64,000 nt of DNA, taken from positions 1 through 64,000 of the forward strand of contig JANQQD010000065.1 in the NCBI GenBank assembly GCA_028285185.1, read 5' to 3'. This document shows, one piece after another, positions 36,982 to 63,482 of this stretch. How positions within the stretch are numbered: position 1 is the stretch's first letter; the number at the start of each line of letters is the position of its first letter. This DNA comes from Anaerolineae bacterium (lineage in GTDB: Bacteria > Pseudomonadota > Alphaproteobacteria > DSM-16000 > Inquilinaceae). The notes under the pieces are model-generated. The model was not told where the DNA came from and did no database searches. It saw only the letters and a list, made by a program, of their open reading frames with translations. The translations under genes were made by a program, and so were the position numbers.

Positions 36982-37028
36982 TGGTGGAGCCAAGGGGAGT
37001 CGAACCCCTGACCTCTACAATGCCATTG
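36982..37028 (-). tRNA. 3' half of a tRNA-Ala(GGC) gene, probable attachment site scar
   Basis: The minus strand reads CAATGGCATTG (anticodon loop with GGC), then the variable and T arm GGGGTTCGACTCCCC and the 3' end TTGGCTCCACCA. The upstream part does not pair with the anticodon 3' stem, and no D arm or 5' acceptor strand is present, so only the 3' half remains. Such fragments mark one end of an element that integrated into the tRNA 3' end; by orientation the element lies to the right. Confidence 0.8.
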
Positions 37029-41696: not shown

Positions 41697-42140
41697 ATGT
41701 CTCGAATGATATGGTGTTTAGTGGCGTTGGCATTCACAATTACGTCGGGTACCGTCACCGGTATGGCAAAAGATGAGCTGCCTGTAAATGAATCGATAGA
41801 AGCTCTATCTGATGAAGAACAGCAAGGCGTGATTTGCCAGATTCTGATGTATCGCTCGCGACGAGGTGTGCTTCTGTCTGTTGAAGAGCGAACGATACTG
41901 CAAAGAGATTGTGTTTCTTTTGGAGCAGAGCTTGATTTGCCCACGATGATAGATGCGCCGGGATCGTCCGTGTTTGGGTTTGGATCAGGCGGGGCAACGG
42001 TAGAAGACTATCAAAGATACGTTGAGGCATTGAGCCTCTTGCTTAGCGGAGGAATAATAATGATAGTCCCCGCTGGAGATGGTGAAGCGGAGAGTCAAGC
42101 GCCGGAAAATAGAGAGGAGAGTCCAGAGCCGCCAAATTGA
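41697..42140 (+). CDS. Exported hypothetical protein, AT-rich
   Basis: The 147-residue product has a signal peptide (MSRMIWCLVALAFTITSGTVTG) and GGAGAGG upstream. The mature part has two cysteines (VICQIL and RDCVSF), a hydrophobic stretch near the end (ALSLLLSGGIIMIVPAG) and a charged tail. No family is recognised. It shares low GC with the next gene, which it precedes by 51 bp, so they may form an operon. Confidence 0.6.
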   Translation: MSRMIWCLVALAFTITSGTVTGMAKDELPVNESIEALSDEEQQGVICQILMYRSRRGVLLSVEERTILQRDCVSFGAELDLPTMIDAPGSSVFGFGSGGATVEDYQRYVEALSLLLSGGIIMIVPAGDGEAESQAPENREESPEPPN

Positions 42141-42191: not shown

Positions 42192-42722
42192 GTGATAGAG
42201 ACGTTTGAGATTGGATTTCATGATGTGTGGAGACTATTAGGGTATTACGTGATAATCATCATTAACGCCGTATTTTTTACTTTGGTCCTTTTTCTGCTCT
42301 GCCGTATTTGGATCTTGATATTGTCAATAAAGAAAAGCTCTAATCGGCGTCAAGCCGAGAATGCCATAACTCCCATTGTTTTCGCTTCTTTGCTAGTCGG
42401 AGTAGCGTTTTCAACGGCAGGATATCTTATCGGTGTAAGTAGGGAGTCGGCCATAGGCGATGTGTTGCCAGCGATACTTGGACTAATGTCCGGATTGGGT
42501 GCAATTTTCTTGACTTCAAGAAAAGAAAAAATGTTGTTGATTGTAGTTGTTATTCTGGCGGCTTCTGAGAATCTTTGGATGGGCGCGAACCTCGGTGCTC
42601 TAGCGAGAGAGCGAGGAAGCATATTGAACACATACCGGGAAGTCGAGCTGGAATTCCTCATACGTAATCACAGAATAAATCTCGGACTCGAGCCGGATAT
42701 GGAGGAGACAGGAGCCGATTGA
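42192..42722 (+). CDS. Membrane protein, AT-rich, unknown
   Basis: The 176-residue product starts with GTG and has about four membrane segments: YYVIIIINAVFFTLVLFLLCRIWILIL, ITPIVFASLLVGVAFSTAGYLIGV, VLPAILGLMSGLGAIFL and MLLIVVVILAASENLWM. A short cytosolic tail follows. It is not recognised. Position after the exported protein suggests a two-gene unit beside the STAND NTPase. Confidence 0.6.
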   Translation: MIETFEIGFHDVWRLLGYYVIIIINAVFFTLVLFLLCRIWILILSIKKSSNRRQAENAITPIVFASLLVGVAFSTAGYLIGVSRESAIGDVLPAILGLMSGLGAIFLTSRKEKMLLIVVVILAASENLWMGANLGALARERGSILNTYREVELEFLIRNHRINLGLEPDMEETGAD

Positions 42723-43700: not shown

Positions 43701-46049
43701 GTGCGCCAAGCGTTGTCCGATTCTGAGACACCGCCGGGCTTGCTCGGCGAAGCCACCACCCGGCTCAAGGACTACCTGATCCTGGGTGGGGCGGCCTTGG
43801 GCCCTCTGACAGTGCTTTACGTGACCGTCAAGGAGATCCGCGACTACGTCGCCGAGGAACCGATGATCGCGGGCGTGATTGCCAGCGCTGTCGCGTTGCT
43901 CTTCTTGTTCGTCGTTGTGGGCTTGTGGCGTGATCGGCGACGCCGCGACTGGTTGGTCGAGGTCGGTCGGCGGGAACGGGCGGCCCAAGGCCTCTCTGAG
44001 TACTTCAAGTTGAGCCCACGCACCGCCCGCGACCATGATGCCTTCGAGCGGGATGACGAGGCGCACCGTGACGTACTGGACTGGATCGTCTTGGCCGCAG
44101 GCGCGCCGTTCCTCTGGCTCACCGGGCGATCGGGCGTCGGTAAGAGCTCGATCCTCTCTGCCCATGTGATCCCTGAGCTGCGCCGTCAGGACCCGCCCTT
44201 CGTCGTTATCGAGGCTCGCGGTTACGCTGATCCCCTCGGCGCACTGTCTCAGGCGTTGCTGACGCCGGGGACAGTTTGGGACGCTCCGCCGAGCCTCAAT
44301 GACCCCCGGATCTTGCTGGAGCAAGCTGCCGAGCGCTGCTGCCCGTCCCGTATTCTCGTCATCCTCGACCAGTTCGAGGAGTTTGCCGTGCTCAAGACGG
44401 CCGACGAACAGGCGCCGGTTCGCGCCTTCCTCAGCGATCTCGAGTCAAGTCCCATTCGCGGCGCCCAGATCCTGTTCAGCGCACGCAACGACGAAGCGTA
44501 CCTCAAACACCTGCAGGACCTCGGCCTGAGCCGTATGACGCTCAACGAGACGTGGTTCGTAATCGACGGATTTGACCAGGCGGAAGCGCAGCGATTTCTG
44601 CAAGCTTGTCCGGACCTGTTCATACCGCCCCCCTTGATCCGTACGGCCTTGCGTGAGGCGCGGGACCTCGAGAACGGCGCGTCGCTTGTCCCACCCGTGG
44701 TGCTTAACCTACTGGGCCTCGCGATCAAGCGGTTGGCCGGGAGCGATCCGCGGGCGGCACGGCGGCGCGGCCTTGCCCGCAGCTACCTGGAAGGCGTACT
44801 GAATGGGTCCGATGTCCAGCAGCTCGGGCCGCCACTGCTCCGGTGCCTCATCACTGATGCCGGAACCAAGCGGCCGGTCACCGAGCCGGCCTTGGAAGCC
44901 GCCGTCCGTCAGCCGGCGGGAGTGGCTCGCGGCGTCCTCAGCCTGTTGTCGCGCCACGGCCTCGTCCGCGAGATCGATCGATCGACACGCACGTGGGAAG
45001 TGTCCCACGACTTCGTCGCCCGGCTCCTCGGGCAGATCCTGGGCCGACTGCGCATCCCCCGCACTAAGCGATTGCTACGCTGGGCGGGGCCCACGGCCAT
45101 CGCTGGTTGGCTGCTGGTGGGGCTCGGACTGCTTCCGGCGTACTTCGCGATTTGGCTCCCGGCGGACATCCGCCGCAATGGCGTCAGCCTGCGGCCCTCG
45201 GATCAGGGCTGGGTGGTGAGCTTCGCGTCGGCTGAAACGCCCCGGGGCGCAGCCGTTCCGGAACTCGAACGCGTTTTGCCGCTACTTCACCGGTTGGGGG
45301 GTAACGTTTCGGCACTGACCATCTCTAACCAGGATGATGTTGAAACCATTGATCTTACAGCGTTCCACGCGTTGGATCTGCTCCAAATCACCGATAACTC
45401 ATTGCTGCGAGAATTCCAAATACCGGACCTGCTGAACTTAAGGAATATGTCGATCTATAATAACAGAAGGCTGGAACATGTAGATGTGCCGGAGCTCTCG
45501 TCGCTGGAATCACTAGAAATTGTGAATAATCCTGAAATAGAGAGTGTCACTATACGAGAAATACCATACCTTCGTAGAATTGTTATAACTGACAATAACC
45601 TAATTGATCTATACATATATCAATTATTAAATCTGAGTTATCTATATATCCGAAATAATCCGCAGATTGAACCATGTCGTGAGATCAATGAAGGTCCTCT
45701 GTCTAGTGCATCAGATCAGTTGGATGACTCACTTACCGAGCACTCAACTGATATAAATGACTTGGAGGATATCCAAGAAGTATATGATTGGTGTGAGAAT
45801 TCCTATAGAATTGGAGCCCGGCGTGAGCTCTTCTACAGTGTTGATGAGCACAGAATTGAAGAGATTGTAGGTACTTCCGTTACTCGCGTGATTAGTTTTT
45901 TTGACCAGATCGAGATGTGCCGAAGTTCATTGGAGATCTGCTTTGGCGACGATTGCCAGCCTATCGTTGCAAAGTGCGGTGAACGTGATCTTATTCACGA
46001 ACAAGAAGTCGGACCCGACGTCTTTAACGGAGACGCCATTGATGGATAG
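43701..46049 (+). CDS. Membrane-anchored STAND NTPase with leucine-rich C-terminus
   Basis: The 782-residue product starts at GTG 43701, but the start is uncertain. Two membrane segments lie near residues 30-76. Next comes a P-loop NTPase with Walker A GRSGVGKSS (142-150) and Walker B ILVILDQFEEF (218-228), typical of the STAND class. A winged-helix-like region ends with TRTWEVSHDFVARLL, and a third membrane segment (IAGWLLVGLGLLPAYFAIWL) lies near 465-485. From about residue 550 there are five 21-22 residue leucine-rich repeats (LxxLxIxxNxxL), then a cysteine-containing tail. DNA after about 45300 is strikingly AT-rich while the NTPase half is GC-rich. The outside-facing repeat domain suggests a sensor; function unknown. 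Confidence 0.82.
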   Translation: MRQALSDSETPPGLLGEATTRLKDYLILGGAALGPLTVLYVTVKEIRDYVAEEPMIAGVIASAVALLFLFVVVGLWRDRRRRDWLVEVGRRERAAQGLSEYFKLSPRTARDHDAFERDDEAHRDVLDWIVLAAGAPFLWLTGRSGVGKSSILSAHVIPELRRQDPPFVVIEARGYADPLGALSQALLTPGTVWDAPPSLNDPRILLEQAAERCCPSRILVILDQFEEFAVLKTADEQAPVRAFLSDLESSPIRGAQILFSARNDEAYLKHLQDLGLSRMTLNETWFVIDGFDQAEAQRFLQACPDLFIPPPLIRTALREARDLENGASLVPPVVLNLLGLAIKRLAGSDPRAARRRGLARSYLEGVLNGSDVQQLGPPLLRCLITDAGTKRPVTEPALEAAVRQPAGVARGVLSLLSRHGLVREIDRSTRTWEVSHDFVARLLGQILGRLRIPRTKRLLRWAGPTAIAGWLLVGLGLLPAYFAIWLPADIRRNGVSLRPSDQGWVVSFASAETPRGAAVPELERVLPLLHRLGGNVSALTISNQDDVETIDLTAFHALDLLQITDNSLLREFQIPDLLNLRNMSIYNNRRLEHVDVPELSSLESLEIVNNPEIESVTIREIPYLRRIVITDNNLIDLYIYQLLNLSYLYIRNNPQIEPCREINEGPLSSASDQLDDSLTEHSTDINDLEDIQEVYDWCENSYRIGARRELFYSVDEHRIEEIVGTSVTRVISFFDQIEMCRSSLEICFGDDCQPIVAKCGERDLIHEQEVGPDVFNGDAIDG

Positions 46050-47448: not shown

Positions 47449-47958
47449 TCAGGTGCCTGTCGGCTGGACCGGGCCCTCCGCCGGCACCCCACCGCAAAAG
47501 CTCGTAAGGAAGACCTCATAGACCCTGAGCCGCGCCGCCTGGTCGGCGTTGTGACTGTCACGGCCGACGGCCAGCGCCAGATAAGCTGTTTCGTAGACCG
47601 CGCAGCGCTCGCCCCGATCACCGAGGGGCGCCCCTCGGTCACCGCTGCACGCCGCCAACACGAGGATGAGCATGGCCAGGAACACCGCAAGGGGAGGGGT
47701 CATGGCCGCGTTCTTCGGCAGGTTCCTACGGAAGTAGGCCGCCGCTGCCGGCCCGATGTAGCCGATGACGGCCATCACTACGGCCTCGACGAGCATCCCG
47801 AAGGCGCCGAGGAATTCGGCCACCGGCGGCCGCTCGACGCCCAGCAAGACCGGGCCAAGGAACCAAAGCAATACCGTCGTGACCGCACCGCCGTAGCCGG
47901 CCGCTCGGGCCTTGTGGGCGGTCTGCTCAGGGGTCGCCGTGTCTTCAGTCTGGGTCAT
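47449..47958 (-). CDS. Holin-like domain fused in frame to a lipoprotein (possible spanin)
   Basis: From ATG 47958 the 169-residue frame first gives two membrane segments (GGAVTTVLLWFLGPVLLGV and FLGAFGMLVEAVVMAVIGYIG) and YFRRNLPKNA, as in phage holins. Without a stop it continues as MTPPLAVFLAMLILVLAACSGD, a lipoprotein signal with lipobox LAAC, then about 70 residues. An internal start could give the lipoprotein alone. It lies downstream of the endolysin gene, where holins and spanins are expected. Confidence 0.65.
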   Translation of the reverse strand: MTQTEDTATPEQTAHKARAAGYGGAVTTVLLWFLGPVLLGVERPPVAEFLGAFGMLVEAVVMAVIGYIGPAAAAYFRRNLPKNAAMTPPLAVFLAMLILVLAACSGDRGAPLGDRGERCAVYETAYLALAVGRDSHNADQAARLRVYEVFLTSFCGGVPAEGPVQPTGT

Positions 47959-47980
47959 CGTTCGTCTCCATGCGAGCATG

Positions 47981-48002
47981 AAAAAACCCGCCAGCGGCGG
48001 GT
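47981..48002 (-). terminator. Rho-independent terminator after the amidase gene
   Basis: On the minus strand ACCCGCC-GCT-GGCGGGT forms a 7-bp GC-rich stem followed by six T. It lies between the amidase gene and the holin-like gene and would end the rightmost leftward transcript. Confidence 0.85.
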
Positions 48003-48029
48003 GGGGTGGGTGGGGATGGTGTCCAGCAA

Positions 48030-48692
48030 TCAGCCGTCGGGATCGGCCAGCGAGACCGGCTCGCCGAAGTCGATCAGCAGCCGGTCCGTACCCGTCGGGC
48101 TGACCGTGAAGCTTGTTGGCACCACCAGCTGGCTAAGCAGCTCCGGCCGCGGATTGTCGATGGTGTCGTCGCCATCATCGGCGGGCCCGCTGTTGAGGCC
48201 CGCCCACCAGCTGGGCACATCGAAGCACGGACAGGCTTTGGGCCGGCCGCCGTATCGCTCGATCATGTCTCGGTGCCCCAGCACCTCCGCATCTGGCCAC
48301 AACGTCAGGGCCTCGCGGATGTCCTGCTCAAGCCCCGCCCACTGCTCCGGCGTATAGTTGGGGTCCGGCCTGCCGCGGTCGTCGATGCCGCCCATGAGGC
48401 AGATGCCATAGGAGTCGTGGTTGTGGCCGACATCGCCGACATGGGCCCCGATCGCGGCAGGATGCAGCGTCACCAGCACCGAGCCGTCACGCGCCCTGAT
48501 CTTGTGATACCCGCAACTCTTCCACGGACCATGCCTCGGACCGCCCTGGCTTTCCGGCGTGTAGTGGAATCGGACGATCCCAAGCGGCGTGTGTCGGGTC
48601 GAGTTGTTCGGCGTTGCGGCGCAGTGCACGACAATGTGCTTAGTCTCCGGTCGCTTGCCGCGGGGTGCGTAGTGGCTTCCGTACTCCATCAT
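48030..48692 (-). CDS. N-acetylmuramoyl-L-alanine amidase (phage endolysin)
   Basis: The 220-residue product is an Amidase_2/T7-lysozyme-type enzyme that cuts peptidoglycan. Zinc ligands are H23 (VVHCAAT), the histidine of VLGHRDM and the cysteine of CPCFD. Conserved YHKIRARDGSV and GICLMGGID are present. A roughly 50-residue C-terminal tail may be a cell-wall or autoregulatory extension. No signal peptide is seen, so it needs a holin. Confidence 0.92.
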   Translation of the reverse strand: MMEYGSHYAPRGKRPETKHIVVHCAATPNNSTRHTPLGIVRFHYTPESQGGPRHGPWKSCGYHKIRARDGSVLVTLHPAAIGAHVGDVGHNHDSYGICLMGGIDDRGRPDPNYTPEQWAGLEQDIREALTLWPDAEVLGHRDMIERYGGRPKACPCFDVPSWWAGLNSGPADDGDDTIDNPRPELLSQLVVPTSFTVSPTGTDRLLIDFGEPVSLADPDG

Positions 48693-48764
48693 CGACCTCT
48701 CGTTTTGGAGATGAAAAGGCGGCCCGAAGGTGGCAGTCTGTTGAGGGCGGGCCTGTTGCGAGAG

Positions 48765-49013
48765 TCAGGGCCCGGCTATCAGGCGGTCCTCGTTCCGCTC
48801 TACTCGTCGTTCCAAACCATCGATCCTGCTGTTGATCGCGTCATTGAAACTGTTGAACTCCGCGCGAAGGCTTGTCAGCTCCGCGTGCATCATCCAGAGC
48901 AGCCCGCATGCCGCTGGCACCGCCACCTTCCAGAGCAGATCCCAGAGCGGATGCTGGGCAAAGCGAGCAACGCGGCCGTTGGGCGGGCCTGCATTCACGT
49001 TGGCGTCAACCAT
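48765..49013 (-). CDS. Small membrane protein with coiled-coil tail (lysis region)
   Basis: The 82-residue product has one membrane segment (LLWKVAVPAACGLLWMM) followed by an amphipathic coiled coil (LTSLRAEFNSFNDAINSRIDGLERRVERNEDRL). Its size and position before the endolysin suggest a holin or inner-membrane spanin, but no family is certain. Confidence 0.6.
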   Translation of the reverse strand: MVDANVNAGPPNGRVARFAQHPLWDLLWKVAVPAACGLLWMMHAELTSLRAEFNSFNDAINSRIDGLERRVERNEDRLIAGP

Positions 49014-49135
49014 CTAGACCCTCATTTCACAGTTGAGCCGGCGGACGGATGCCCGTCTCGCCGGTTGCTCCCCAGCAGCAGTTGAGCGATGATCGACGTC
49101 ATCGGAGGTCAGCAATTGGGGAATCCCTGTTCGAT

Positions 49136-50110
49136 ATGCTAGTTGGAGTTTCTATCTCGGCTTTTCTTTTGATGGGTATAGCCGGAATTTTTCTTGCCAG
49201 GAAAAGGATCTGGAAATGGGTAGATGTTATCTACTATCCAGTCGCAGGAGCTGGAGTGCTCCTTCTATTCTTTTCTTTTGATCGATCAAACTCGACACGT
49301 GAGATCAATGAAATTAGAGCGGAGTTCGAGACAAAGATCGCAGCTCACCTTAGAAATCTGCCAAATGTCGACGTCAGTCAATTGCAAATGATGCAAAATA
49401 TAAGTGATGGATACGAAGTGCTTGGATCTATTATTTCCATAGACTACAATTGCAAGGCACAAGAAAGCCAATCAAGTACATGCGCTGCTGCACGGATTTT
49501 GGCTCCACGAGCTGATGGAATCGTGAACCTATTTGATGAGTTTCTGGATAATTCTCTTGAAAACTGGGATATCGCCGCTATCGAACTTTGCACAGATTTC
49601 ACCACAATCATAGATGATTTAATTAGCGATTCCTCTGTTGCAGCGCTTGTTTTTGAAGAATTGTCTCGTCCCGTCCCCGCGTCAAGCGACATGCAGACGG
49701 AAGCTGAACCAGGGCTTATGTATTTTACGCTGCAGCGGCGTCTCTTACGCAGAATGCAATCGCTCGGCGCAGTACTTGAAGTGGAAGGTGAAACAAATTT
49801 CGGGACCTTTCTATATTACACAGAAATGATCACGAACATTGCGATGAGCTATAACGTTTGTCTAGTGTTACCGGAAGATGTGGCGAATTTTGATTTGGCC
49901 CGCTGGAGAATTGGGGGCGACGAACTGAGTCTCGAGCGAGATCAGATGATCGCTGCGGTTCAGGAGGAGGCTGAAGAGGCTCACCAAGCCGCCGAGCGTG
50001 TTCGCTGGTGGCGACAGGAATGGTGGCCCTATCTGATCCTGCTGGCTCTAGCCCTGAAGTTTGGGAAGGGGGTGGCAGACTTGAGATCCGCCCATCGTAC
50101 TGGAGTTTGA
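49136..50110 (+). CDS. AT-rich membrane protein inside the prophage (moron candidate)
   Basis: The frame is open from 49049, but the AT-rich gene body begins about 49110, so ATG 49136 is preferred (324 aa). Two membrane segments lie at the N-terminus (MLVGVSISAFLLMGIAGIFLA and VIYYPVAGAGVLLLFFSF), a large middle domain with three or four cysteines follows, and a last membrane segment lies in WWPYLILLALALKFG. It is transcribed against the phage genes and has much lower GC, as expected for cargo. Function is not recognised. Confidence 0.65.
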   Translation: MLVGVSISAFLLMGIAGIFLARKRIWKWVDVIYYPVAGAGVLLLFFSFDRSNSTREINEIRAEFETKIAAHLRNLPNVDVSQLQMMQNISDGYEVLGSIISIDYNCKAQESQSSTCAAARILAPRADGIVNLFDEFLDNSLENWDIAAIELCTDFTTIIDDLISDSSVAALVFEELSRPVPASSDMQTEAEPGLMYFTLQRRLLRRMQSLGAVLEVEGETNFGTFLYYTEMITNIAMSYNVCLVLPEDVANFDLARWRIGGDELSLERDQMIAAVQEEAEEAHQAAERVRWWRQEWWPYLILLALALKFGKGVADLRSAHRTGV

Positions 50111-50353
50111 GGGAATCTGTGACAACGAATACGACTTCTTCAGTCATCCATGAAGAACCGTTTACACGCTGGTGTATAACGTATACTTGAGCCGCCCAAG
50201 TACACGGTTTTGCAGGAAAGCGGTTTAATTGCTTTGATTGCGAGTGCTCTGCTGATATTCGGAGGCATCGAGAGTAAGAACTGCACCTCAGGCTTAGAGA
50301 CTTCGCTAACTGGCCCCGATTGGTGGTCCCCACCAGGATCTGCTCTCCTGACG

Positions 50354-50854
50354 TCATGGGGCTAGTACTTGGTCGATTTCCTCGGGCGTCAGGCCGGCTG
50401 CGTTCAGCAGGCCTCGGACCCTGGGGTCGTCTGGTGAAAGACCCTCGCGTAGCGTTGACAGTGTCCAGCGTTGGTCCGCCGGCAGCGCGTCGATCAATTC
50501 GCCCACGGCCAGCGCCTTGCCGATCGCCTCGACCCGCTCACGAACGAGCCAATCCGGGATAAAGACCTCGACCGTCGGCAACGGTTCTGTTGCGACGATC
50601 ACCTCGCGACGCTGATGCGGCCAGACGGTCAGGTCGAAGACATGGTCGCGAGTGGTAATCCGCTCGCCTTCGGGTGCGGTGGCCTCGACCAGAGCGAACG
50701 GTCTCATGGTGCCGGCGTTCTTGGCCCAGTCGTCCTGGCTCCATCGCTCTACCGCCTGGCGCGGATGCCGCCGTCCGTCAGTGCCCTTGAAATCCCCGCG
50801 GCCTGCATCGGGCACTAGCGTCGGCGGATCGGTCGACACGTCGAAGATCTCCAT
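50354..50854 (-). CDS. Phage tail-fibre assembly-like protein
   Basis: The 166-residue product combines an N-terminal variable part with a C-terminal helical region (VEAIGKALAVGELIDALPADQRWTLSTLREGLSPDDPRVRGLLNAAGLTPEEIDQVL). It sits at the distal end of the tail-fibre genes. No motif fixes its role. Confidence 0.55.
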   Translation of the reverse strand: MEIFDVSTDPPTLVPDAGRGDFKGTDGRRHPRQAVERWSQDDWAKNAGTMRPFALVEATAPEGERITTRDHVFDLTVWPHQRREVIVATEPLPTVEVFIPDWLVRERVEAIGKALAVGELIDALPADQRWTLSTLREGLSPDDPRVRGLLNAAGLTPEEIDQVLAP

Positions 50855-50863
50855 GGACTGGCC

Positions 50864-51583
50864 TCAGTCACTTGGGGTGCTAGCGGCGTCGGACAGCGGG
50901 CCGCTGTTCACAGTGAGCCCTTCGCCCGGACCTTTGTTTGTGTGCCAGGATGCCGTCTCGCCGCTCAGGAAGAGGATGGGGGTTACGCCCGGACCACTGC
51001 CGTCGGCACCGAGATCCACCGGCTTGCCCTGGGCATCTCTGAACTTGGAGATGCCCGTTCCCGGCGCCCAGTACTGCGAGAGAGACAGCCATAGATCGGC
51101 CACCTCTGCGTTCAGCCTGTTGCCTCCGGCGTCATTCGCCCCGATCGCCCACTCGGTTCTTGTGTAGTCAATGGTGTTTGCGTTCGCCGAGTTTGTCCCC
51201 TCATCCTGGCTCCCGTTTATGTACAGGTGCGCCGTGTTTGATTGCCATGAACTGTAGATATGTATCCAGCCAGACGCAGTGGTGTATGTATTCGAAGAAA
51301 TAAGCTGACGGTCGAATGAAGCGCCGTTGAACCAGTTGAAGTATATCTTGTTGTTGCTCTCCTTATAGCAGTTCCATCTATCTCCCTCAGAGTTACCGAT
51401 GTACTGGCGGACGCCGTCGCCTCCCATGAAATTCACGTAGATCGAAAACGTACCGTCAGTTCCGTTTGAATTGTTCGTTAGGTCCGATCCGCGAGTGAGC
51501 CACGGCGTGCCATTGAACCGGACCGCATTCGCATCGTAACCCCGACGGCGCGTCACGATGGCAGGGCGCATGAAGAAGGGCAT
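50864..51583 (-). CDS. Phage tail protein with LamG/concanavalin-like fold
   Basis: The 239-residue product has a beta-rich pattern typical of LamG domains (FSIYVNFMGG, KIYFNWFNGAS, WIHIYSSWQSNTAHLYINGSQ, AEVADLWLSLSQY). It probably binds a host surface glycan as a tail tip. It starts at the last base of the upstream fibre gene stop. Confidence 0.7.
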   Translation of the reverse strand: MPFFMRPAIVTRRRGYDANAVRFNGTPWLTRGSDLTNNSNGTDGTFSIYVNFMGGDGVRQYIGNSEGDRWNCYKESNNKIYFNWFNGASFDRQLISSNTYTTASGWIHIYSSWQSNTAHLYINGSQDEGTNSANANTIDYTRTEWAIGANDAGGNRLNAEVADLWLSLSQYWAPGTGISKFRDAQGKPVDLGADGSGPGVTPILFLSGETASWHTNKGPGEGLTVNSGPLSDAASTPSD

Positions 51584-52206
51584 CAGACGACAGCCTCGCT
51601 GTCGAACACCCAGACCGTGGTGCCGTCCGTGATGTAGCCGAGCACATAGACACCGGCCGAAGACAGGTCCGTCGCCATGCCTGACCTGGCCTTGACCTCG
51701 CCCCCCAGAATGATCTGGTGTCCACCGGAGTTGTCGAGAATGATGGTCCCACCGGTGCCATCCGCCTCACCGGAGAATTGCAACGTGATGTTGCCGGTCG
51801 GGGTAACCTTGAAGTTGTGGGCGGCCCCGAGGTTGAGATTGCCGTCGTTGTCAATAACGAACGCTGACCGTTGAACGCCGGTCCACGCTTGGCTTTGATC
51901 CGTCTTCGCCGTATCCGCGTCATAGCTCTGGACGCCACCGGCCTGATCGATGGTGATGGCCGTGCCTTCGCTGTAGGCGGTGTACGTCGTTCCGTCCCAC
52001 GCGGCGATCGTCACCCATGCCGTGTTTCCGCCGTTCCGCCTCTTGATCAAGTTCGCCGTCATGTCCCACCAGACCATGTTGGCGAATGTCGGAGTCGGTG
52101 CCGTCGGGCCGGAGTTGCCCGAGACGATCGCCGCAAGGACAGCGTTGACGTCCGCTCTGAACGTGCCCCCATCGGCGTTGGCGATATCATAGTCGTGATG
52201 AGCCAT
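51583..52206 (-). CDS. Phage tail-fibre-like protein A
   Basis: The 207-residue product begins with a 75-residue module (HDYDIANADGGTFRADVNAVLAAIVSGNSGP...NTAWVTIAAWDGTTY) shared with the protein at 53056-53721. This is the probable attachment module; a distinct beta-rich C-terminus follows. Confidence 0.72.
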   Translation of the reverse strand: MAHHDYDIANADGGTFRADVNAVLAAIVSGNSGPTAPTPTFANMVWWDMTANLIKRRNGGNTAWVTIAAWDGTTYTAYSEGTAITIDQAGGVQSYDADTAKTDQSQAWTGVQRSAFVIDNDGNLNLGAAHNFKVTPTGNITLQFSGEADGTGGTIILDNSGGHQIILGGEVKARSGMATDLSSAGVYVLGYITDGTTVWVFDSEAVV

Positions 52207-52207
52207 C

Positions 52208-53059
52208 TCAGTACCTCAAGACCGCGGCACCGCGCTGGCCAGGCGCCGACGCGCTGCTGTTCCCGCCCTCACCGGTGTTGGCTGGCTTATCAGCGTGCCC
52301 GTTCTGTGCGGGGAGGGCGCCCGAGCCTTGCTCCGAAACCACGTCGTCAACGCCGTCCGCGGCGAAGTTTGACCCTCCGCCGCCGGCCCCGCCGCCGTTC
52401 GCCGTCCCTGTAGACTGTGATCGACCGCCCGAGCCGCCGCCGTGCCATCCGCCGCCGCCGCCGCCGCTTCCGGCCGCTTCGCCGGATGGATCGACCGGCG
52501 CACCGCCGGCGAGCGCAGTTCCGTTGTTGCTGGCACCGCTCCCGCCAGTGCCACCAATTGTCGGTTCCCCACCGGTGCCACCGCCACCAGGCTGTGGGCC
52601 CTGTCCATCAGTGCCATTGGCGCCGGTCGGCCCGCCGCCTGCACCGCCGTTGCCACCGAAGATGCCCGTCTGCGTGGCGTTACGTCCGCCGGCCGCTCCG
52701 CCGCCGCCGGCGAGCAAGATCATGTTTTCCGGAGTCTCCGTTCCCCGGAAGATCGCAGTGTAGCCACCGCCCAGATTCGGCGCGGGCGTACCGGGTGCCC
52801 CGACACGGATCTTCAGCGTCTCACCGGGCGTGACTTCAATCGTGCCGCTAACGAAGCCGCCGCCGCCGCCTTTGCCGAAGCCACCGCCAACCGCTTGGCC
52901 GCCGGCTGTGCCTCCGGCGCCCCACCCAGCGGCCGGGATCCTGGTCACACCGTCGGGGACAACCCAATCGGTCACCCCGGGCGTCGTGAAAACGACCTTG
53001 TTGGTGAAATCTTGCGGCGGCGTCGGCGGTACTAAGATCGCTGCCAGGGCAGCCGTCAT
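52208..53059 (-). CDS. Glycine-rich phage tail protein
   Basis: The 283-residue product has a short N-terminal beta domain (VVFTTPGVTDWVVPDGVTRI), then long glycine-rich runs (GGGGGFVSG, GGAGGGPTGANGTDG, SGGGGGGWHGGGSGG). Such proteins form polyglycine-II sheets at receptor-binding tips. It lies between the two related fibre genes. Confidence 0.75.
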   Translation of the reverse strand: MTAALAAILVPPTPPQDFTNKVVFTTPGVTDWVVPDGVTRIPAAGWGAGGTAGGQAVGGGFGKGGGGGFVSGTIEVTPGETLKIRVGAPGTPAPNLGGGYTAIFRGTETPENMILLAGGGGAAGGRNATQTGIFGGNGGAGGGPTGANGTDGQGPQPGGGGTGGEPTIGGTGGSGASNNGTALAGGAPVDPSGEAAGSGGGGGGWHGGGSGGRSQSTGTANGGGAGGGGSNFAADGVDDVVSEQGSGALPAQNGHADKPANTGEGGNSSASAPGQRGAAVLRY

Positions 53060-53721
53060 GTCAGGCCACCAGCAAGCCAGTACTCACCATCGGCGATCTT
53101 TGCGACCGACACCGCCGCATATCGCCCAACCGTCGTCAGTGATGCGTCCAAAGAGCGGACGACGTCCGCGCCCTGCGGGGCGAACGTTATCTGACCGGCG
53201 CCCCACTGGACGCAGATGCACTGGAACCCGACGATCAGGTCCTCGGTCGACACCTGCGGCAGGGTGAGCGTGATCGCGGACTCGTTGTTCAGCCGGATGA
53301 CCTTGCCGCGGTCGCTTTCGGTGAGCGTGTAGGCCGTGCCCGTCTGCTCCGCGAGGTCGAACTTCTGGCCGACGAGGTTGCGCATATCGAGCGCCGGGAG
53401 ATGGCCATTTACGTCGAGTTGCAGCAGGTTGTTGGCGGCTGTCCCGGCCGTAAGGATCGCCGCGTTACCGAGCGCGACGCCGGCCCGATATGGGATGTAC
53501 GTCGTACCGTCCCAGGAGGCGATGACGACCCAGGCCGTGTTCGCCGAGTTGCGCCACTTGACGAGATTGGCCGCAGTGTCCGGCCAGACCATGTGCGCAT
53601 ACGTAGGGCTGGGCGCACCCGTACCGGCGTTCTGTGAGGCAATCGCGGCGAGTGCGGCGTTGATATCCGCCCGGACGACGCCGCCAGCCGCGTTGTCGAT
53701 CACATAGTCGTGCTGGGACAA
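53056..53721 (-). CDS. Phage tail-fibre-like protein B
   Basis: The 221-residue product shares the N-terminal module of the gene at 51583 (HDYVIDNAAGGVVRADINAALAAIASQNAG...NTAWVVIASWDGTTY). Its C-terminus (LTLPQVSTEDLIVGFQCICVQWGAGQITFAPQG) is typical of fibre tips. It overlaps the glycine-rich gene by four bases. Confidence 0.72.
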   Translation of the reverse strand: MSQHDYVIDNAAGGVVRADINAALAAIASQNAGTGAPSPTYAHMVWPDTAANLVKWRNSANTAWVVIASWDGTTYIPYRAGVALGNAAILTAGTAANNLLQLDVNGHLPALDMRNLVGQKFDLAEQTGTAYTLTESDRGKVIRLNNESAITLTLPQVSTEDLIVGFQCICVQWGAGQITFAPQGADVVRSLDASLTTVGRYAAVSVAKIADGEYWLAGGLT

Positions 53722-53724
53722 TGC

Positions 53725-54078
53725 CTATTCCTCTCGGCGGTGCGCCCGGTCCTTCTCGATGATCGCGATCAACTGTTGCGTGGTGGCCGGCAGGGGGCAG
53801 CCTGTGTGCTCCGACAGCGCCCGGAAACCATCGACGATCGCCAGAGCCGTTAGGTTCTGTTCGCCCTGAAGCGGTCGCTTCAATGGCTCGAAGCGTTGGA
53901 GGGCCCGGTCCCACCAGTAGAGACCCGGTTTCAGGTCGCAGTCGTCGGGACAGGGAACCTGCTTGTCGTTGAGCTCCGCATCGGCGGGCACTTTCTCGTA
54001 ACCGATCAGCTGGTCTCGGCCGTCGAGGACGGCGACCGTCTGCATGGGCACCGGTTCGGCCTGGGCCTTTCTCGTCAC
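53725..54078 (-). CDS. Small phage tail-region protein
   Basis: The GTG at 54078 overlaps the stop of the J-like gene (GTGA) and gives 117 residues with a YWWDRALQRFEPL motif and a helical C-terminus (ALAIVDGFRALSEHTGCPLPATTQQLIAII). The longer frame to 54204 has no start signal. The role is unknown. Confidence 0.6.
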   Translation of the reverse strand: MTRKAQAEPVPMQTVAVLDGRDQLIGYEKVPADAELNDKQVPCPDDCDLKPGLYWWDRALQRFEPLKRPLQGEQNLTALAIVDGFRALSEHTGCPLPATTQQLIAIIEKDRAHRREE

Positions 54079-57026
54079 TGAACTGCCTCCGCGTGAATTG
54101 AGAGGACGGGAACCCGGATGTTCACAGCCGGGTCGGTAGAGGTAAGTCGCGCCTGGAACCTCAGACCTCGGGCTTCGACCTCGGTGACCTCGATGCGCTG
54201 CCACGGACCCCAGTTCGGCGAACCGTTCGGATCGTCATCGGTCTCGCTGACCCAGAGCGTGACGTCCGCCTCGCCCCCAACCGCTCCATCGAAATCGGAC
54301 CACGTGTCGATGTCCGTGGTTCGGCTGTCGAAGAGATCGAACACATCAAAGACAACGACCTGCAATTCCGTCGTCAGCCGCCGTCGGACGACCGCACCGA
54401 AATCGAAGCCCGCGGCGAAGTCGTAGGTGCCGGATGATTGGACGCCGCCTTCGGCGTCGACGTTCAGGACGGCGTCGAAGTCGAGCCAGGTGTCGACCAG
54501 CGCCGACCCGGCGAGCTTCAGGGCGCCGTCCGGCGCCACCGTGTTGGTCTTCGTGCCGGCGAATACCGTGTGCTCGCTGATCGTCGCCAGGTTGCCGTAC
54601 TGAAGCGCCGTCGCCTGTTTCGTCGTGACCGACGCCGTACCCACCGACAGCACGCCGGAGCTGTCCCGGGACTTCAGCAAATAGGTGCCCTTCTTCAGCG
54701 GCAGTTGAGCTGCCGTGGCCTTGCCTGGCACCGGCGTGCCGATCGTCGAGGACGTCTCCCAGGTAGCTCCCACGAGCGCGCTGGAATGCCGGACAAAGAT
54801 CTCCCCGCCCTCCTGGACATCCAGATCGGGCAGCGGATCCCAGTCGATCAGAGCGAGCCCACCAATGCTCCTGATCGTGACGTTTTGCGGCTCGGTCGGC
54901 GGTGCAGGCAGACCGAAGATTTCCTTCGTCGTGACCTGACGTGCACTTGGCACCCCCAGCGTGTTGAACGCCGTGACACCGAAATCGTAGATGCCGGGAG
55001 CGATGTCGAAGATCGTGAGTGACGTCTCGTCGCGGCGGGGGCCGGCCTCCTGCCAGTCCTGCGATGAGGTCAGCTTGAATTCGACCAGATACTGATCGAC
55101 GAACGCGTCCGGGCTCCGGGCCCAGGTGACCGTCGCCTGGGCTTTGACGCCGGCGCCGGTTCTGGTGTTGTAAAGGGATTCCGACACGTCAGGCAGGCCG
55201 GGCGGTTGGACCGAAAAGACTTTCGAGCCTCGAATGCTCTTCGCCGGCGGTGTCTCGTTCTCCTCTGTGAGCGCGTCCCAGGCGTAGACGGCGCTGTCGG
55301 TCTCGCGGCAGGTGAACTTCGTTGTGATGACCGGGTCGCCAGTTGCGCCCTTTTTCGTATCGAGGCCCCAGCTGACCAACTGGAAGGTCTTATTGACCCA
55401 TCCGCGCGTTGCCTTGCTCAACGTGCAGGTGCTGCCGGCCTGGACGCGAAGGCCGGTCAGCTTGCAGGGCACCTGAACCGTTGTCTCGCGTCGCTCGCGC
55501 TGCTGGTCGATCTTCGCCAGGCGCTGGGACATTGCCGATCGATTGGTCAGCGGCAGGTTCAGCGACTTGACGATCTTCGTGCCGCCGTCGGCCGCGACCG
55601 CGGTGGCGTCCACCCACTGCGGATAGTCGGTTGGCTCCCAATCGTTGATGGACGAGACATAGAGCCCGGCCCGGGCGTTGGACCTTTGTGACCGGGGGAC
55701 CTTGGTTGCGATGTCCAGCGGCCCCGTGAAGTGGCTCTCGTCGAAGCTGGCCTTCGCGTCCGGTTCGACCCAGGCTGCCGCCTGCGATCGCCATTTGCCG
55801 CCGGCGAAGGTCGTCAGGGCTCCCATCGACGAGTAGAGATCCTTCAGGATGTCCGCGGGCCTGCGGTCGCTCTCCAGGACGCCGTTGCATGTGTACCTGG
55901 GTTCGCCGGTCTTGGTGACGGTGTGGGTTCCGGTACCGGCGTCCGTGATTTCGATGGCAGTGCCGGCCAGTGCGCCGAGATAGGTGCTCGCTAGTTGGAT
56001 GCGCAGGAAGACGTCGAATTCATCATCATCGTCGTCGTCCCGTGCCCGCTCGTGGACCGGGATAACGTAGTAACTGGTGGCCGCCGCGATGCCTGTCGGA
56101 AGCGTGCCTGTCGTTGAGACCTCGACGCGGTCGCCACGCTCGAACTTCAGTTTCTCCTCATCGAGGTCAATCGTGTTGCCCGACGCATCGACCGAGAGCA
56201 CGGCATGGGCGACGGTTTTTGTGTCGACGATCTCATCGCAGATGTTCGCGCTGGCATTGCCGGTGACGTCGTCAATCTTAGTCGTCGGCGCGCCGAGGCC
56301 GAACTTCTGATCGGTGAAGTACCATCGCGTGCACAGCGAAGGATTCGGCTGCCATGACGTCGTCGCCGATCGAGGGTCGTAGACCTTGGCGCCGCGGATC
56401 AGGCACTTGAAGTTGGGGATCCCGTTCGGGAACGTCGATCGGCTGTATCTCAGCAGGACGTAAAGGTAGCAGACCCCGCGGCCCCGGAAGTTCTCGTCGA
56501 GATAGTCGACCGCGGCAATGAGGTCAGGGTCGGCGACTTGGTCGGGCAATCCGAGGTGCTTCTTGAAGCGCAGCGCGTTCTTGTAGCGCCCGCGCGTCAC
56601 CCAACCGTCGTTGTCCAGGTCATCGTCGTAAATCGGAACGTCGTTCACGAAGATCGTGCCGATGGCCTCGACCTCGTGATTGACCAGCGTGATGCAGTAA
56701 TGGTGGTCCCGGTTGCTCTCGGTTTGCTCCATGAACGTGAGCGCGCCAGAGACCAGCGCCTCGCCGACTATGGCGCGCTGATTGGTGATGGCTGTGCGCA
56801 CCAACTGCGTGCGCTGGGATGCCGACGATCCGAAGCCGGAGAACGACGGCAGGTCGAACGAGGGCCGGCCGCTTTGGGTCAGGATGGACCCGGCTAGGTT
56901 CAGAACGAAAGTCCCAAACCCAATGAGCGCAGCTGTAAGAGCGGTGAGCCCTGCGACCGTAGCAGCGCTGATGCCCGCCACGACGCCCGCGAGCGCCGCG
57001 CCGATGAGAGCTCCTGCCGGCGGCAT
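54075..57026 (-). CDS. Phage tail tip/host-specificity protein (J-like)
   Basis: The 983-residue product starts with hydrophobic glycine/alanine-rich helices and continues with TITNQRAIVGEALVSGALTFMEQ and HYCITLVNHEVEAIGTIFVNDVPIYDD, shared by lambda J-like central tail proteins. Fibronectin-III-like stretches lie near residues 620-760 (PGLPDVSESLYNTRTGAGVKAQATVTWARSPDAFVDQYLVEF). It caps the tail and carries the fibres. Confidence 0.87.
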   Translation of the reverse strand: MPPAGALIGAALAGVVAGISAATVAGLTALTAALIGFGTFVLNLAGSILTQSGRPSFDLPSFSGFGSSASQRTQLVRTAITNQRAIVGEALVSGALTFMEQTESNRDHHYCITLVNHEVEAIGTIFVNDVPIYDDDLDNDGWVTRGRYKNALRFKKHLGLPDQVADPDLIAAVDYLDENFRGRGVCYLYVLLRYSRSTFPNGIPNFKCLIRGAKVYDPRSATTSWQPNPSLCTRWYFTDQKFGLGAPTTKIDDVTGNASANICDEIVDTKTVAHAVLSVDASGNTIDLDEEKLKFERGDRVEVSTTGTLPTGIAAATSYYVIPVHERARDDDDDDEFDVFLRIQLASTYLGALAGTAIEITDAGTGTHTVTKTGEPRYTCNGVLESDRRPADILKDLYSSMGALTTFAGGKWRSQAAAWVEPDAKASFDESHFTGPLDIATKVPRSQRSNARAGLYVSSINDWEPTDYPQWVDATAVAADGGTKIVKSLNLPLTNRSAMSQRLAKIDQQRERRETTVQVPCKLTGLRVQAGSTCTLSKATRGWVNKTFQLVSWGLDTKKGATGDPVITTKFTCRETDSAVYAWDALTEENETPPAKSIRGSKVFSVQPPGLPDVSESLYNTRTGAGVKAQATVTWARSPDAFVDQYLVEFKLTSSQDWQEAGPRRDETSLTIFDIAPGIYDFGVTAFNTLGVPSARQVTTKEIFGLPAPPTEPQNVTIRSIGGLALIDWDPLPDLDVQEGGEIFVRHSSALVGATWETSSTIGTPVPGKATAAQLPLKKGTYLLKSRDSSGVLSVGTASVTTKQATALQYGNLATISEHTVFAGTKTNTVAPDGALKLAGSALVDTWLDFDAVLNVDAEGGVQSSGTYDFAAGFDFGAVVRRRLTTELQVVVFDVFDLFDSRTTDIDTWSDFDGAVGGEADVTLWVSETDDDPNGSPNWGPWQRIEVTEVEARGLRFQARLTSTDPAVNIRVPVLSIHAEAVQ

Positions 57027-57445
57027 CAGATCCGCCAGGCGCGCTGAGCGTCGGTGATCGGGAAGAACGTCAGGCCGTGCCGGTCCGCTACAGCCGCGCG
57101 CGTGCCTGTCGTATCGACAACGCCGAGCGCCGGCTCATTCTGTCCGGTGCGCACCAAGACAACGTCACCACGCTGCGCGAACGCTGGTGGCACCTCGCCG
57201 AAACCGTTCAATGCAGCCACCCGTTCGGCGATCCCCTCGACGCCGTCGTTGCCGGCGAGGATCGCGTTGGCGCCGTCCTCATTGTCGTAGGCGAGCAGGT
57301 TGTCGGGAATGTTGGCTTTCGGGCGTTGAGCGCGGATGCACGCCACGGCGAAGCGGCAGCAGTCGTGCTCGCGGAAATCGAAGGTAGCCTCGGCCGCCGA
57401 CGCGATAGCACGGCCGAGTTGCCCCTCCCAATCTGGCGGCTTCAC
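57026..57445 (-). CDS. NlpC/P60-like tail assembly protein (DUF6950 type)
   Basis: The 139-residue product starts at GTG 57445, overlapping the previous stop (GTGA). It has the catalytic-type cysteine in FREHDCCRFA and a later GDVVLVRTG with aspartate. Such proteins sit between the hub and J genes (lambda K-like) and may cut peptidoglycan during entry. The longer frame to 57928 is a shadow. Confidence 0.75.
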   Translation of the reverse strand: MKPPDWEGQLGRAIASAAEATFDFREHDCCRFAVACIRAQRPKANIPDNLLAYDNEDGANAILAGNDGVEGIAERVAALNGFGEVPPAFAQRGDVVLVRTGQNEPALGVVDTTGTRAAVADRHGLTFFPITDAQRAWRI

Positions 57446-57996
57446 GTCAGGATGATCTCTTTGTCCTGCAGGTCGGCGACATAGTCGAAGAACGTGTCGG
57501 TCGGATAGTCCGCCTGGTGATCCTCGGGTGTGTTCCGCCTGAGCTTTGGCCGTTCCAGCACGGCGAGTTCGTTCTCCGCCGAGAGCCAGACGTTCGCAGT
57601 CTCCGCCCCCTCCGTGTGGCGCATGACGTCCATGGCGCCGGTGAAGATCTCGTATGGGTCGGCGACCACGGTCAGCGCCGGCGTCAGCGCCGCGAAGTAG
57701 AGCGAGCAGGGACGCTGCTGGTATTCTTCGTTTTCGGCGATGTCGATGATGGCGGGGTCCATGCCGGAAAGCATGAACCGCACGCCGTCGGCGCGGATTT
57801 CCGTGGACTCCTGGATCAACGAGGCGCCGCCAAAGGTGCCGGATCCTGTCCAGGTCTCTCCGAGGGCCGTCAGATCGCCATAGCCGGTCCAAAGCCTGAG
57901 CGGCCCGCTCCCGAATTGCCCATGCCACAGGAAGATCGGCTTTAGGGCGTCGGCGGCGAGTTCGTCATCGAGGGCGGAGGTTATCCCGCGCGTCAT
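57442..57996 (-). CDS. Phage tail hub-like conserved protein
   Basis: The 184-residue product (FLWHGQFGSGPLRLWTGYGDLTALGETWTGSG ... DPYEIFTGAMDVMRHTEG) is a protein that I know from siphophage tails just upstream of the NlpC-like gene, probably part of the hub as in gene-transfer-agent gp13. The assignment rests mainly on order and this pattern. Confidence 0.65.
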   Translation of the reverse strand: MTRGITSALDDELAADALKPIFLWHGQFGSGPLRLWTGYGDLTALGETWTGSGTFGGASLIQESTEIRADGVRFMLSGMDPAIIDIAENEEYQQRPCSLYFAALTPALTVVADPYEIFTGAMDVMRHTEGAETANVWLSAENELAVLERPKLRRNTPEDHQADYPTDTFFDYVADLQDKEIILT

Positions 57997-58620
57997 CTAG
58001 ACGACGCTCCTGGCGGCCAGGACCAGCCCGTATTGCTTTGCGAGTGCTACGTCCCACTCGTTGGCGTTGTCGGGCTGCCGGAAGAGGCCGACGGGGTTGT
58101 CTACGATGACGGCCTGACCATCCAGGAGCGCCTGTTTGGCGGTGATGTTGGGCCAGAGGTCGATCGATGCGTTGCCGCTGCCGTCAGCGTCGACGCTTGC
58201 CGTCAGAACCTTGTGAAGCCGAGCGTTCAGTCCCGCTCCAAGCTGGATGTAGTCGCCCAACAGCAGGTTGCCGGTGCTGTTCGGCGTCAGGTTGCGGATG
58301 TTAAGCGTAGCGCCCACCTGGGATGCTCCGTTGACCACAGCGCCGCCCGTGGGCGTCCCCCTGCGTGTCTTGCTCAGATCGCCGACGAGGAACGTGCCTT
58401 TGACTCCGTTGAGGCTCGCCCGCCAACACACCAGGGTCTCGCCGTCGGCCTCGTTCAGCGGTGGAAAGATGGCCTCGAATTCCCACCACTTGCCTGCATG
58501 CTCCTGGATCTGCTGCTCACCAGTGAGCGGCATGGTCTCCAGACCGATGACGTCGCGCGTGCGTAGCGTGAGCTTGCGCGCCTGGATGCCGACCCAGGTG
58601 AGAGGGTAGGTGATGGCCAT
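57997..58620 (-). CDS. Phage distal tail-like conserved protein
   Basis: The 207-residue product (QARKLTLRTRDVIGLETMPLTGEQQIQEHAGKWWEFEAIFPPL) occupies the lambda M / distal tail protein slot immediately after the tape measure gene. It adjoins its neighbours within one to four bases. Confidence 0.65.
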   Translation of the reverse strand: MAITYPLTWVGIQARKLTLRTRDVIGLETMPLTGEQQIQEHAGKWWEFEAIFPPLNEADGETLVCWRASLNGVKGTFLVGDLSKTRRGTPTGGAVVNGASQVGATLNIRNLTPNSTGNLLLGDYIQLGAGLNARLHKVLTASVDADGSGNASIDLWPNITAKQALLDGQAVIVDNPVGLFRQPDNANEWDVALAKQYGLVLAARSVV

Positions 58621-58623
58621 CGG

Positions 58624-61383: not shown

Positions 61384-61442
61384 GTTCGCGTCACCCTTGT
61401 CAGTTGCGCTTTGCTTGAGAGCGGCCGGAAAGGACCGCGGCC

Positions 61443-61790
61443 TTAGTCAGTTCCGTGCGCGCTCTGGATGGGGGCAACTGCTGCCAGCGTCGCTCGAATG
61501 CTGTCCCGGGTGAGGCTTGGCCGCTTTCCTCCACCAGGTAGGAAGTCGGACGGACGGAAGCGCCGAGCACCTTTCCCGCGATGCACGTTGGCTATGGTTG
61601 ATGCCACCATGCCGGATCGCCAATCCGCTGCCGGCTCCCCGAACGGTTCGACCTGGAAGAAGGCTATCCACTCCGCCTCGAGGCGGGCGGGCATGACCTC
61701 GGCAAGCGCGTCGACATCCCAGATGCCCAGCGCGAGGGCTAGTCGGAAACGGAATCGTCTCCGGGGATCTCGGTAAACCCCTCCGCCAAC
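61443..61790 (-). CDS. Tail assembly chaperone T part (expressed by frameshift)
   Basis: This frame contains RLALALGIWDVDALAEVMPARLEAEWIAFFQVEPFGEPAADWRSGMVASTIANVHRG, the DUF4035/lambda T-like domain, but no start codon before it. The domain begins where the G frame ends (61739), in the -1 frame, so it is most likely made as a G-T fusion by -1 ribosomal slippage. I give 61790 as an approximate left limit of the overlap; no classic slippery heptamer is present, though GGGGTTT at 61781-61775 is a candidate. Confidence 0.75.
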   Translation of the reverse strand, partial: VGGGVYRDPRRRFRFRLALALGIWDVDALAEVMPARLEAEWIAFFQVEPFGEPAADWRSGMVASTIANVHRGKGARRFRPSDFLPGGGKRPSLTRDSIRATLAAVAPIQSAHGTD

Positions 61791-62140
61791 TCCTCTACGT
61801 CCTCTTTTCGCAGCGCGTTGAGGCGCATGGCGACGTCGAACGCTGGCTGGACCGCCATTGCGGGCAGTCCGCCTATCACATGCGCCTCGTCGTCGGTGAG
61901 CAGCCGCTGACCGCCCTCGTCGAAGAGGCACCGGACAAGCAGCCGACCTCTGAAGTTCGCCAGGTTCGATCTTCGGTCGCCCCTGTCGTCAACCATGCCT
62001 GCTTCGAACGTGTCTCGCTCCGCAGCCGACATTCCCCGGACGACGACGTTCCCACCGAGGGCCGGCAATTCGACGGTCTCCTGCGGGAACTTGACCGCCG
62101 CAGCGGCGTTGAGCAGCGCTTCGCGTGTCAGACCAGGCAT
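61739..62140 (-). CDS. Tail assembly chaperone G-like protein
   Basis: The 133-residue product (TREALLNAAAAVKFPQETVELPALGGNVVVRGMSAAERDTFEAGM ... VAMRLNALRKEDVEELAEG) matches siphophage tail chaperones, which coat the tape measure protein. It lies between the major tail protein and the tape measure gene. Its last part overlaps the T frame. Confidence 0.83.
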   Translation of the reverse strand: MPGLTREALLNAAAAVKFPQETVELPALGGNVVVRGMSAAERDTFEAGMVDDRGDRRSNLANFRGRLLVRCLFDEGGQRLLTDDEAHVIGGLPAMAVQPAFDVAMRLNALRKEDVEELAEGFTEIPGDDSVSD

Positions 62141-62141
62141 A

Positions 62142-62558
62142 TCAGGACTCCGTCACCGCGCCGGTGATCTCGATGGTGATTGATGCCGTGACGACGGCGT
62201 CGACGGCGCCGCTGACTGCGAACCCCAGGACGAACCCGGCGAACGACCAGGTCGTTGTGCCTGCGTCCGTGTAGACGACCTGGAAGTTGCCCTGCGCACG
62301 CGTCGACCGCAGGGTCCTCAGTCTTCCCTGCCCGACGGTGTCCGACGGGTCGAAGTTGACGTTGAGCGTGATCTGCCCCTCGTCCGGGATACCCATGCGC
62401 TTCTCACGACGGACCGAGGCGAGATTGGTTGTGTCGATGACATTCGCCTGGCCGCCAGGACCGTCGAAGCCAGTGACCTCGCCGACGGCGTTGAAGGTCT
62501 CAGGGTCGCCTCCGTCGCCAACCCTGAAGACCGTGCCTTGTGACTCGATTGTTGCCAT
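62142..62558 (-). CDS. Phage major tail tube protein
   Basis: The 138-residue product (MATIESQGTVFRVGDGGDPETFNAVGEVTGFDGPGGQANVIDTTNLAS and later GFVLGFAVSGAVDAVVTASITIEITGAVT) has the lambda V/tail tube pattern. It is next to the chaperone as usual. Confidence 0.87.
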   Translation of the reverse strand: MATIESQGTVFRVGDGGDPETFNAVGEVTGFDGPGGQANVIDTTNLASVRREKRMGIPDEGQITLNVNFDPSDTVGQGRLRTLRSTRAQGNFQVVYTDAGTTTWSFAGFVLGFAVSGAVDAVVTASITIEITGAVTES

Positions 62559-62591
62559 GTGTCAGACCCCTTCGTCAGTTCGACGGCCGCG

Positions 62592-63092: not shown

Positions 63093-63107
63093 CGTTTAGA
63101 CCTCCGT

Positions 63108-63482
63108 CTAGTGCGGGCACCCGACCCGCCAGGTTTGCGTGATCCGCCACCAGTCCGGCTGTTCCTCGAAGCCATCCTGTTCGCCGGCGTGCCGGAAGAT
63201 GACCGGTGCGTTGGCGTCGCCGCCTCGCGAGTTCTGCAGCCGTTCGGTCACGGCGTCCGCGGCCTGCTTTGCTGCCGGATAGCTGCGGGCCCAGATGTCG
63301 ATCTGCAGCACCACAGAGGCGCGGTCAGAGGTGCCGGAAAGCGACCGGACCGGTGCTGTCGCTACCCGCTGGTAGGTCAACGCCGGCAGCGTCGGCTTCT
63401 GAGGCAGGACTACCGGATGAAGGCGCCCGTCGAGGACGGGAGGGTCGCGTTTGAGAACGGCAACCAGTTCCGCTTCCATCAC
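63108..63482 (-). CDS. Phage tail terminator-like protein (DUF3168)
   Basis: The 124-residue product has the DUF3168 pattern (ALTYQRVATAPVRSLSGTSDRASVVLQIDIWARSYPAAKQAADAVTERLQ). The family caps the tail for head joining. It overlaps the gp10-like gene by four bases. Confidence 0.85.
   Translation of the reverse strand: MMEAELVAVLKRDPPVLDGRLHPVVLPQKPTLPALTYQRVATAPVRSLSGTSDRASVVLQIDIWARSYPAAKQAADAVTERLQNSRGGDANAPVIFRHAGEQDGFEEQPDWWRITQTWRVGCPH

Follow-up and report, generated by a model that had tools for sequence, protein, structure and literature searches.

We describe a prophage-borne gene that, in our moderately confident reading, encodes a single-gene, NLR-like STAND receptor spanning the inner membrane, with a predicted anti-phage role and membrane helices as its likely effector. 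The gene lies at 43701-46049 of the window, by which we mean the whole 64,000-nucleotide stretch of DNA analysed here, and judging from its sequence context it is cargo of a prophage-like element of about 62.7 kb in a tRNA-Ala gene of an alphaproteobacterium. Its product combines a STAND NTPase, three candidate membrane helices (TM1-TM3) and leucine-rich repeats (LRRs), a layout that, kept across at least three phyla, should place the LRR sensor beyond the inner membrane. The features discussed below are collected in Table 1.

Table 1. Features of the STAND-LRR gene and its surroundings (window coordinates unless marked as contig; KD, hydrophobicity value)
Feature	Position	Strand	Remarks
Att copy, 47 bp, left end of prophage	36982..37028		identical to 3' end of tRNA-Ala(GGC), contig 99619-99665
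Second STAND gene, NNH3 - NACHT - long pentapeptide-repeat array, 1009 aa	38285..41314	-	
AT-rich cargo ORF, 147 aa, signal-peptide-like N-terminus	41697..42140	+	no confident family match
AT-rich cargo ORF, 176 aa, hydrophobic stretches	42192..42722	+	no confident family match
STAND-LRR gene: 2TM - nSTAND1 NTPase - TM - LRR - Cys-containing tail, 782 aa	43701..46049	+	start codon uncertain
TM1 (aa 25-43)	43773..43829	+	weak hydrophobicity, KD 1.73
TM2 (aa 55-73)	43863..43919	+	KD 2.89; 20 residues after TM2 hold 8 K/R vs 4 D/E
STAND NTPase core and winged-helix region (aa 97-438)	43989..45014	+	ends in conserved WEVSHDF (432-438)
Walker A, GRSGVGKSS (aa 142-150)	44124..44150	+	
Walker B region, ILVILDQFEE (aa 218-227)	44352..44381	+	DQFEE at 223
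TM3 (aa 466-484)	45096..45152	+	KD 1.96; 20 residues before TM3 hold 6 K/R, 0 D/E
LRR N-cap, strands and helix (aa 495-541)	45183..45323	+	aligns to homologue L005 across compositional break
GC3 change point, codon 516/517	45249..45249	+	
LRR array (aa 536-662)	45306..45686	+	21-22-residue LxxLxIxxNxxL repeats
C-terminal tail (aa 663-782)	45687..46046	+	C-x6-C-x4-C-x6-C at aa 740-759; confident model absent from about aa 659-663 on
Late genes (amidase, tail fibre J, tape measure)	47449..64000	-	terminase, portal, capsid, repressor and integrase lie beyond the window

The reading frame of the gene is uninterrupted over its 782 codons and opens with GTG. This start is uncertain because an AAGGAG just 5' overlaps the GTG, so that the true start may differ; TM1 is retained if the true start lies within about 20 codons. 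In Pfam the protein matches nSTAND1 at aa 121-295 (E=4e-14, 53.5 bits against a cutoff of 27.1) better than NACHT (PF05729), which at 24.5 bits falls under its cutoff of 26.7. The LRRs number five or six, each of 21-22 residues, and five of them match LxxLxIxxN. LRR_4 scores only 18.6 bits here, under its cutoff of 27, and the autocorrelation of L, I and V residues in the region peaks at lag 22, with a value reached by only 1 of 2000 shuffles. Searches of the protein found no enzymatic effector domain and no additional DNA-binding domain. PADLOC gave no confident match to it, the best being mad8 (E 0.028), and no Avs model was among the matches listed. The lack of an effector enzyme domain and of a confident PADLOC match weighs against the reading we favour.

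Structure prediction, which the first-pass annotation had proposed as a check, was run with AlphaFold2 and gave both an LRR solenoid and a STAND fold that includes the winged-helix region. In these predicted models pLDDT is about 80-94 over most of aa 120-450 and mostly 75-91 over the solenoid at aa 536-651, and a long helix at aa 454-492 spans TM3. A sequence-profile search of the NTPase against solved structures gave weak P-loop matches only. The predicted NTPase model matched Apaf-1 (Z 17.2, rmsd 4.8 over 295 residues), the NB-ARC domain of tomato NRC1 (Z 16.4), MalT (Z 16.1), the NACHT domain of NLRP3 (Z 15.5) and Avs3 (Z 13.1, rmsd 5.4 over 248 residues). The C-terminal model matched internalin A, SspH1, the RPP1 LRR and hormone-receptor ectodomains (Z 14-16 over 144-186 residues). 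The domain order that the first-pass annotation had read from the sequence, with a STAND NTPase anchored in the membrane, then a third membrane segment and LRRs, is borne out by the nSTAND1 match, the three hydrophobic segments and the repeats; its count of five repeats of 21-22 residues agrees with the LxxLxIxxN matches, the lag-22 periodicity and the modelled solenoid.

Profile searches recovered ten full-length homologues in which an NTPase of the same family is followed by LRRs. They come from Pseudomonadota, among them a Rhodospira MAG (L005), Methylococcaceae (L006), Paracoccaceae (L009, L010) and the same family as the window's genome (L002); from Acidobacteriota (L007, L014) and Planctomycetota (L008, L011); and from one viral contig (L085). 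The STAND motifs (Walker A and B) are kept in all 11 family members, and LRR_4 scores above the Pfam cutoff in nine of the ten homologues, the exception being L005. A tree of the NTPase core pairs the window protein with L005 as its sister (100/100 support); the two are 51% identical in the core. A layout common to a rare and scattered family is therefore not a one-off gene fusion. That the frame is a chance fusion, or a decaying pseudogene at the edge of a prophage, could be argued from the compositional jump within it, but the frame is intact, the motifs are conserved and ten homologues have the same NTPase-then-LRR order, which contradicts a chance fusion; we reject that explanation and judge its probability negligible.

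The NTPase-LRR family is rare and sporadically distributed: matches were found in 2 of 192 relatives, while samples of 385 genomes from the class, 398 from the phylum and 73 from the family of L005 gave 2, 1 and 1, counts that include the query or seed genome each time. Each carrier genome has one locus, the paired matches in the L012 and L020 genomes being pieces of a single locus. No conserved neighbour genes were evident among the homologues on inspection by eye, and the window protein had no match in plasmid and phage collections. L085 is the sole homologue from a viral collection, and its neighbours gave just one weak PHROG match; this counts against the reading we favour. In L007 (L007:5143-7698) a DUF4062 domain precedes the shared membrane-STAND-LRR layout, so the N-terminal end may be a place where effectors are added. 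The membrane helices are the sole candidate effector in most family members.

Charges flanking the hydrophobic segments were scored in the window protein and seven homologues (L011, L014 and L085 were left out). In all eight the NTPase-side flanks of TM2 and TM3 are rich in K and R, and at the TM3 position basic residues are followed by a hydrophobic segment; the loop joining TM1 to TM2 carries a net negative charge in the window protein. This charge bias around TM2 and TM3 would place the NTPase inside the inner membrane and the LRRs outside it; together with hydrophobicity it suggests a topology with cytoplasmic NTPase and periplasmic LRRs. Were TM3 not membrane-spanning, the protein would be a bacterial NLR of the ordinary sort, tied to the inner membrane but with its LRRs in the cytoplasm. 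TM1 and TM3 of the window protein are indeed only moderately hydrophobic, and L014 and L085 have no TM3 above the threshold of 1.6, which weighs against our preferred reading; plant LRR NLRs known so far are reported to be intracellular (PMC10586772). We nevertheless consider cytoplasmic LRRs unlikely, given the basic-flanked segment in the window protein and all seven scored homologues, the long helix modelled there and the six Cys residues that follow TM3 in the window protein.

The gene changes composition along its length. GC is 0.60-0.71 until about 45300, 0.36-0.38 at 45350-45800 and 0.44-0.53 near the 3' end, and GC3 drops from 0.79 to 0.43 at codon 516. The log-likelihood ratio of this GC3 break is 51.5, against a maximum of 11.5 in 200 shuffles, and it ranks first among 43 ORFs of at least 300 aa from this contig and two stretches of one same-genus genome; the second, 23.7, falls at codon 74 of another ORF. 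From the codon usage of the upstream part of the gene, a GC content of 55% would be expected for the LRRs and tail, whereas 42% is observed. Amino-acid content thus accounts for about half of the drop and is ruled out as its full cause. The first-pass annotation had placed a single shift from GC-rich to AT-rich at the first repeat; the shift is real, but it falls inside the LRR N-cap and comes in two steps, GC3 going from 0.82 to 0.55-0.60 and then to 0.23-0.53.

From this shift it had been suggested that the gene exchanged its sensor domain. On that account recombination with an AT-rich donor supplied the 3' third of the gene, and the LRRs and the NTPase differ in origin, which we regard as a serious possibility while leaning against it. 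The size of the GC3 break, only about half explained by amino-acid content, speaks for it, as do the AT-rich cargo ORFs nearby and a similar break just past TM3 in L006, where GC3 falls from 0.62 to 0.26 at codon 478, more sharply and about eight residues past the third helix of that protein. The type of LRR varies too: N-type repeats (LxxLxIxxN) occur in three members, the window protein, L005 and L006, and T/A-type repeats in the other eight, L010 having 11 repeats. Against it stands L005, the GC-rich sister, which has the same LRR type and the top LRR score and whose N-cap can be aligned past the break. GC in L005 is 0.60-0.72 along the gene (240-base blocks); only beyond the LRRs, over the final 90 codons, does GC3 dip. 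In local alignment the AT-rich LRRs of the window protein score 173 with L005, 126 with L006 and no more than 75 with any other homologue, L010 among them. Nor did a donor of LRRs and tail emerge: there is no second copy in the protein's own genome and no relative in viral contigs, and the tail matched nothing but itself in 289 genomes of the class.

Since GC-rich L005 has the same LRR type and is the best match across the break, the kind of sensor has not been swapped since the window protein and L005 split, and so it predates the change in composition. In LRR type the AT-rich 3' module agrees with that of L005; it either came from an AT-rich lineage or was shifted by rapid evolution, and does not represent a novel sort of sensor. 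An AT-rich allele with LRRs of this type may have replaced the 3' part, since L006 breaks similarly, and exchange of sensors over longer time scales is plausible because LRR type differs between distant members; the breaks in the window protein and L006 lie at different alignment positions, which argues for separate events or drift. Of the earlier suggestion, then, the compositional break stands, but a swap peculiar to this gene does not, LRRs occurring at the same place in ten homologues. A homologue of uniform composition and the same C-terminus had been named as the finding that would speak against exchange, and L005 is for the most part such a homologue. The tails of the window protein and L005 score 26 in local alignment (P=0.32), so homology between them is not supported, nor is any with the tail of L006; a similar Cys spacing, C-x6/7-C-x4-C-x6-C, is present in both. 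As for homologues with other C-termini, for which a search had been suggested, all ten full-length ones carry LRRs, differing in type between distant members, and L012 stops soon after TM3, without LRRs.

The gene probably has a role in defence against other phages, and its membrane helices are the likely effector. The LRRs would sense a component of a second phage infecting the cell, or the damage that its entry does to the envelope; the NTPase would then exchange nucleotide and oligomerise; and the membrane helices would cluster, depolarising or permeabilising the membrane, so that infection is aborted or the second phage excluded. It is thus periplasmic sensing, NTPase-driven oligomerisation, membrane damage and exclusion of other phages that we infer. 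The signalling might instead not be aimed at phages, with the protein acting as a membrane receptor that regulates host or prophage expression. MalT, a STAND protein among the structural matches of the NTPase model, is described as a transcription regulator (PMC10427625), but the window protein has no additional DNA-binding domain that we could find, and the rare, sporadic distribution of the family suits accessory rather than regulatory genes; we think a regulatory role improbable.

Several known systems come close to our proposed membrane-spanning receptor. Bacterial NACHT proteins with LRRs, called bona fide bacterial NLRs (PMC12169576), also combine a central STAND NTPase and a C-terminal LRR sensor in a single gene; the window protein differs in having nSTAND1, not NACHT, as its best Pfam match, an N-terminal membrane hairpin instead of an effector enzyme, and a third membrane helix ahead of the LRRs. 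AVAST (Avs) proteins likewise join a STAND NTPase to a C-terminal sensor, and Avs3 is one of the structural matches given above, but its chain has 2028 residues against 782, and the window protein has LRRs in place of the Avs sensor and is predicted to be transmembrane. In Thiohalocapsa PB-PSB1, nSTAND1 and NACHT proteins are targets of diversity-generating retroelements (DGRs), and for one target at the NACHT locus of DGR 3 a periplasmic sensor is predicted, along with a periplasmic NACHT domain (PMC10907252). These targets belong to the STAND family and one shares a predicted periplasmic sensor; they differ in their C-type-lectin sensors and DGR loci, where the window protein has LRRs, and in the predicted periplasmic NACHT domain of the DGR 3 target, the NTPase here being predicted cytoplasmic. 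In P4-like satellites, cargo hotspots harbour STAND defence genes, TIR-NLR among them, and the TIR-NLR was shown to protect against phages (PMC9122126). Those genes are also mobile-element cargo coding for a STAND NTPase with C-terminal repeats, but with TPR sensors and TIR, SIR2 or nuclease effectors rather than LRRs and membrane helices.

Bacterial STAND defence proteins in the literature surveyed mostly sense inside the cell. A periplasmic LRR sensor would extend immune sensing to the periplasm, the site where phage entry starts, and a bacterial receptor of this kind would combine the surface placement of Toll-like and LRR-kinase receptors with the switch of NLRs. A literature search of limited coverage returned no account of a STAND NTPase that lies in the cytoplasm and is joined through the membrane to an LRR ectodomain, and we claim novelty with that reserve. 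As a broader and much more tentative proposal, which we would not call probable, the whole family may be STAND receptors with a periplasmic LRR ectodomain, an inner NTPase switch and membrane helices that kill, sensing infection at entry and serving prophages as a weapon against competing phages.

An integrase ORF adjoins the tRNA-Ala copy of the att sequence, and between the two att copies lie genes for an S24 repressor, TerL, portal and capsid. The STAND-LRR gene is near the prophage end opposite the integrase. The stretch between the lysis end and the left att copy is a usual position of prophage cargo; here it holds the STAND-LRR gene, the NACHT-pentapeptide gene and the two small, adjacent AT-rich ORFs. 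An SRAP (HMCES/YedK-like) gene at 46697-47389 (+) lies between the STAND-LRR gene and the lysis end. Farther on, a 353-aa ORF at 49049-50110 (+), on the strand opposite the late genes, has a low GC3 of 0.46 and no PHROG match.

With the amidase as query, no close relatives of the prophage were found in 116 genomes or in viral contigs, and phage matches were limited to tail proteins less than 60% identical. No empty att site was recovered in a same-genus genome, which counts against our preferred explanation. There the corresponding tRNA-Ala borders on another element (L113, 7225-9184), which carries a serine-recombinase-like ORF, so named from a reading of its N-terminal sequence; the site may be an integration hotspot. 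At 36598-36773 of the window lies a 176-bp stretch with copies, about 90% identical, on two further contigs of the genome that the window comes from.
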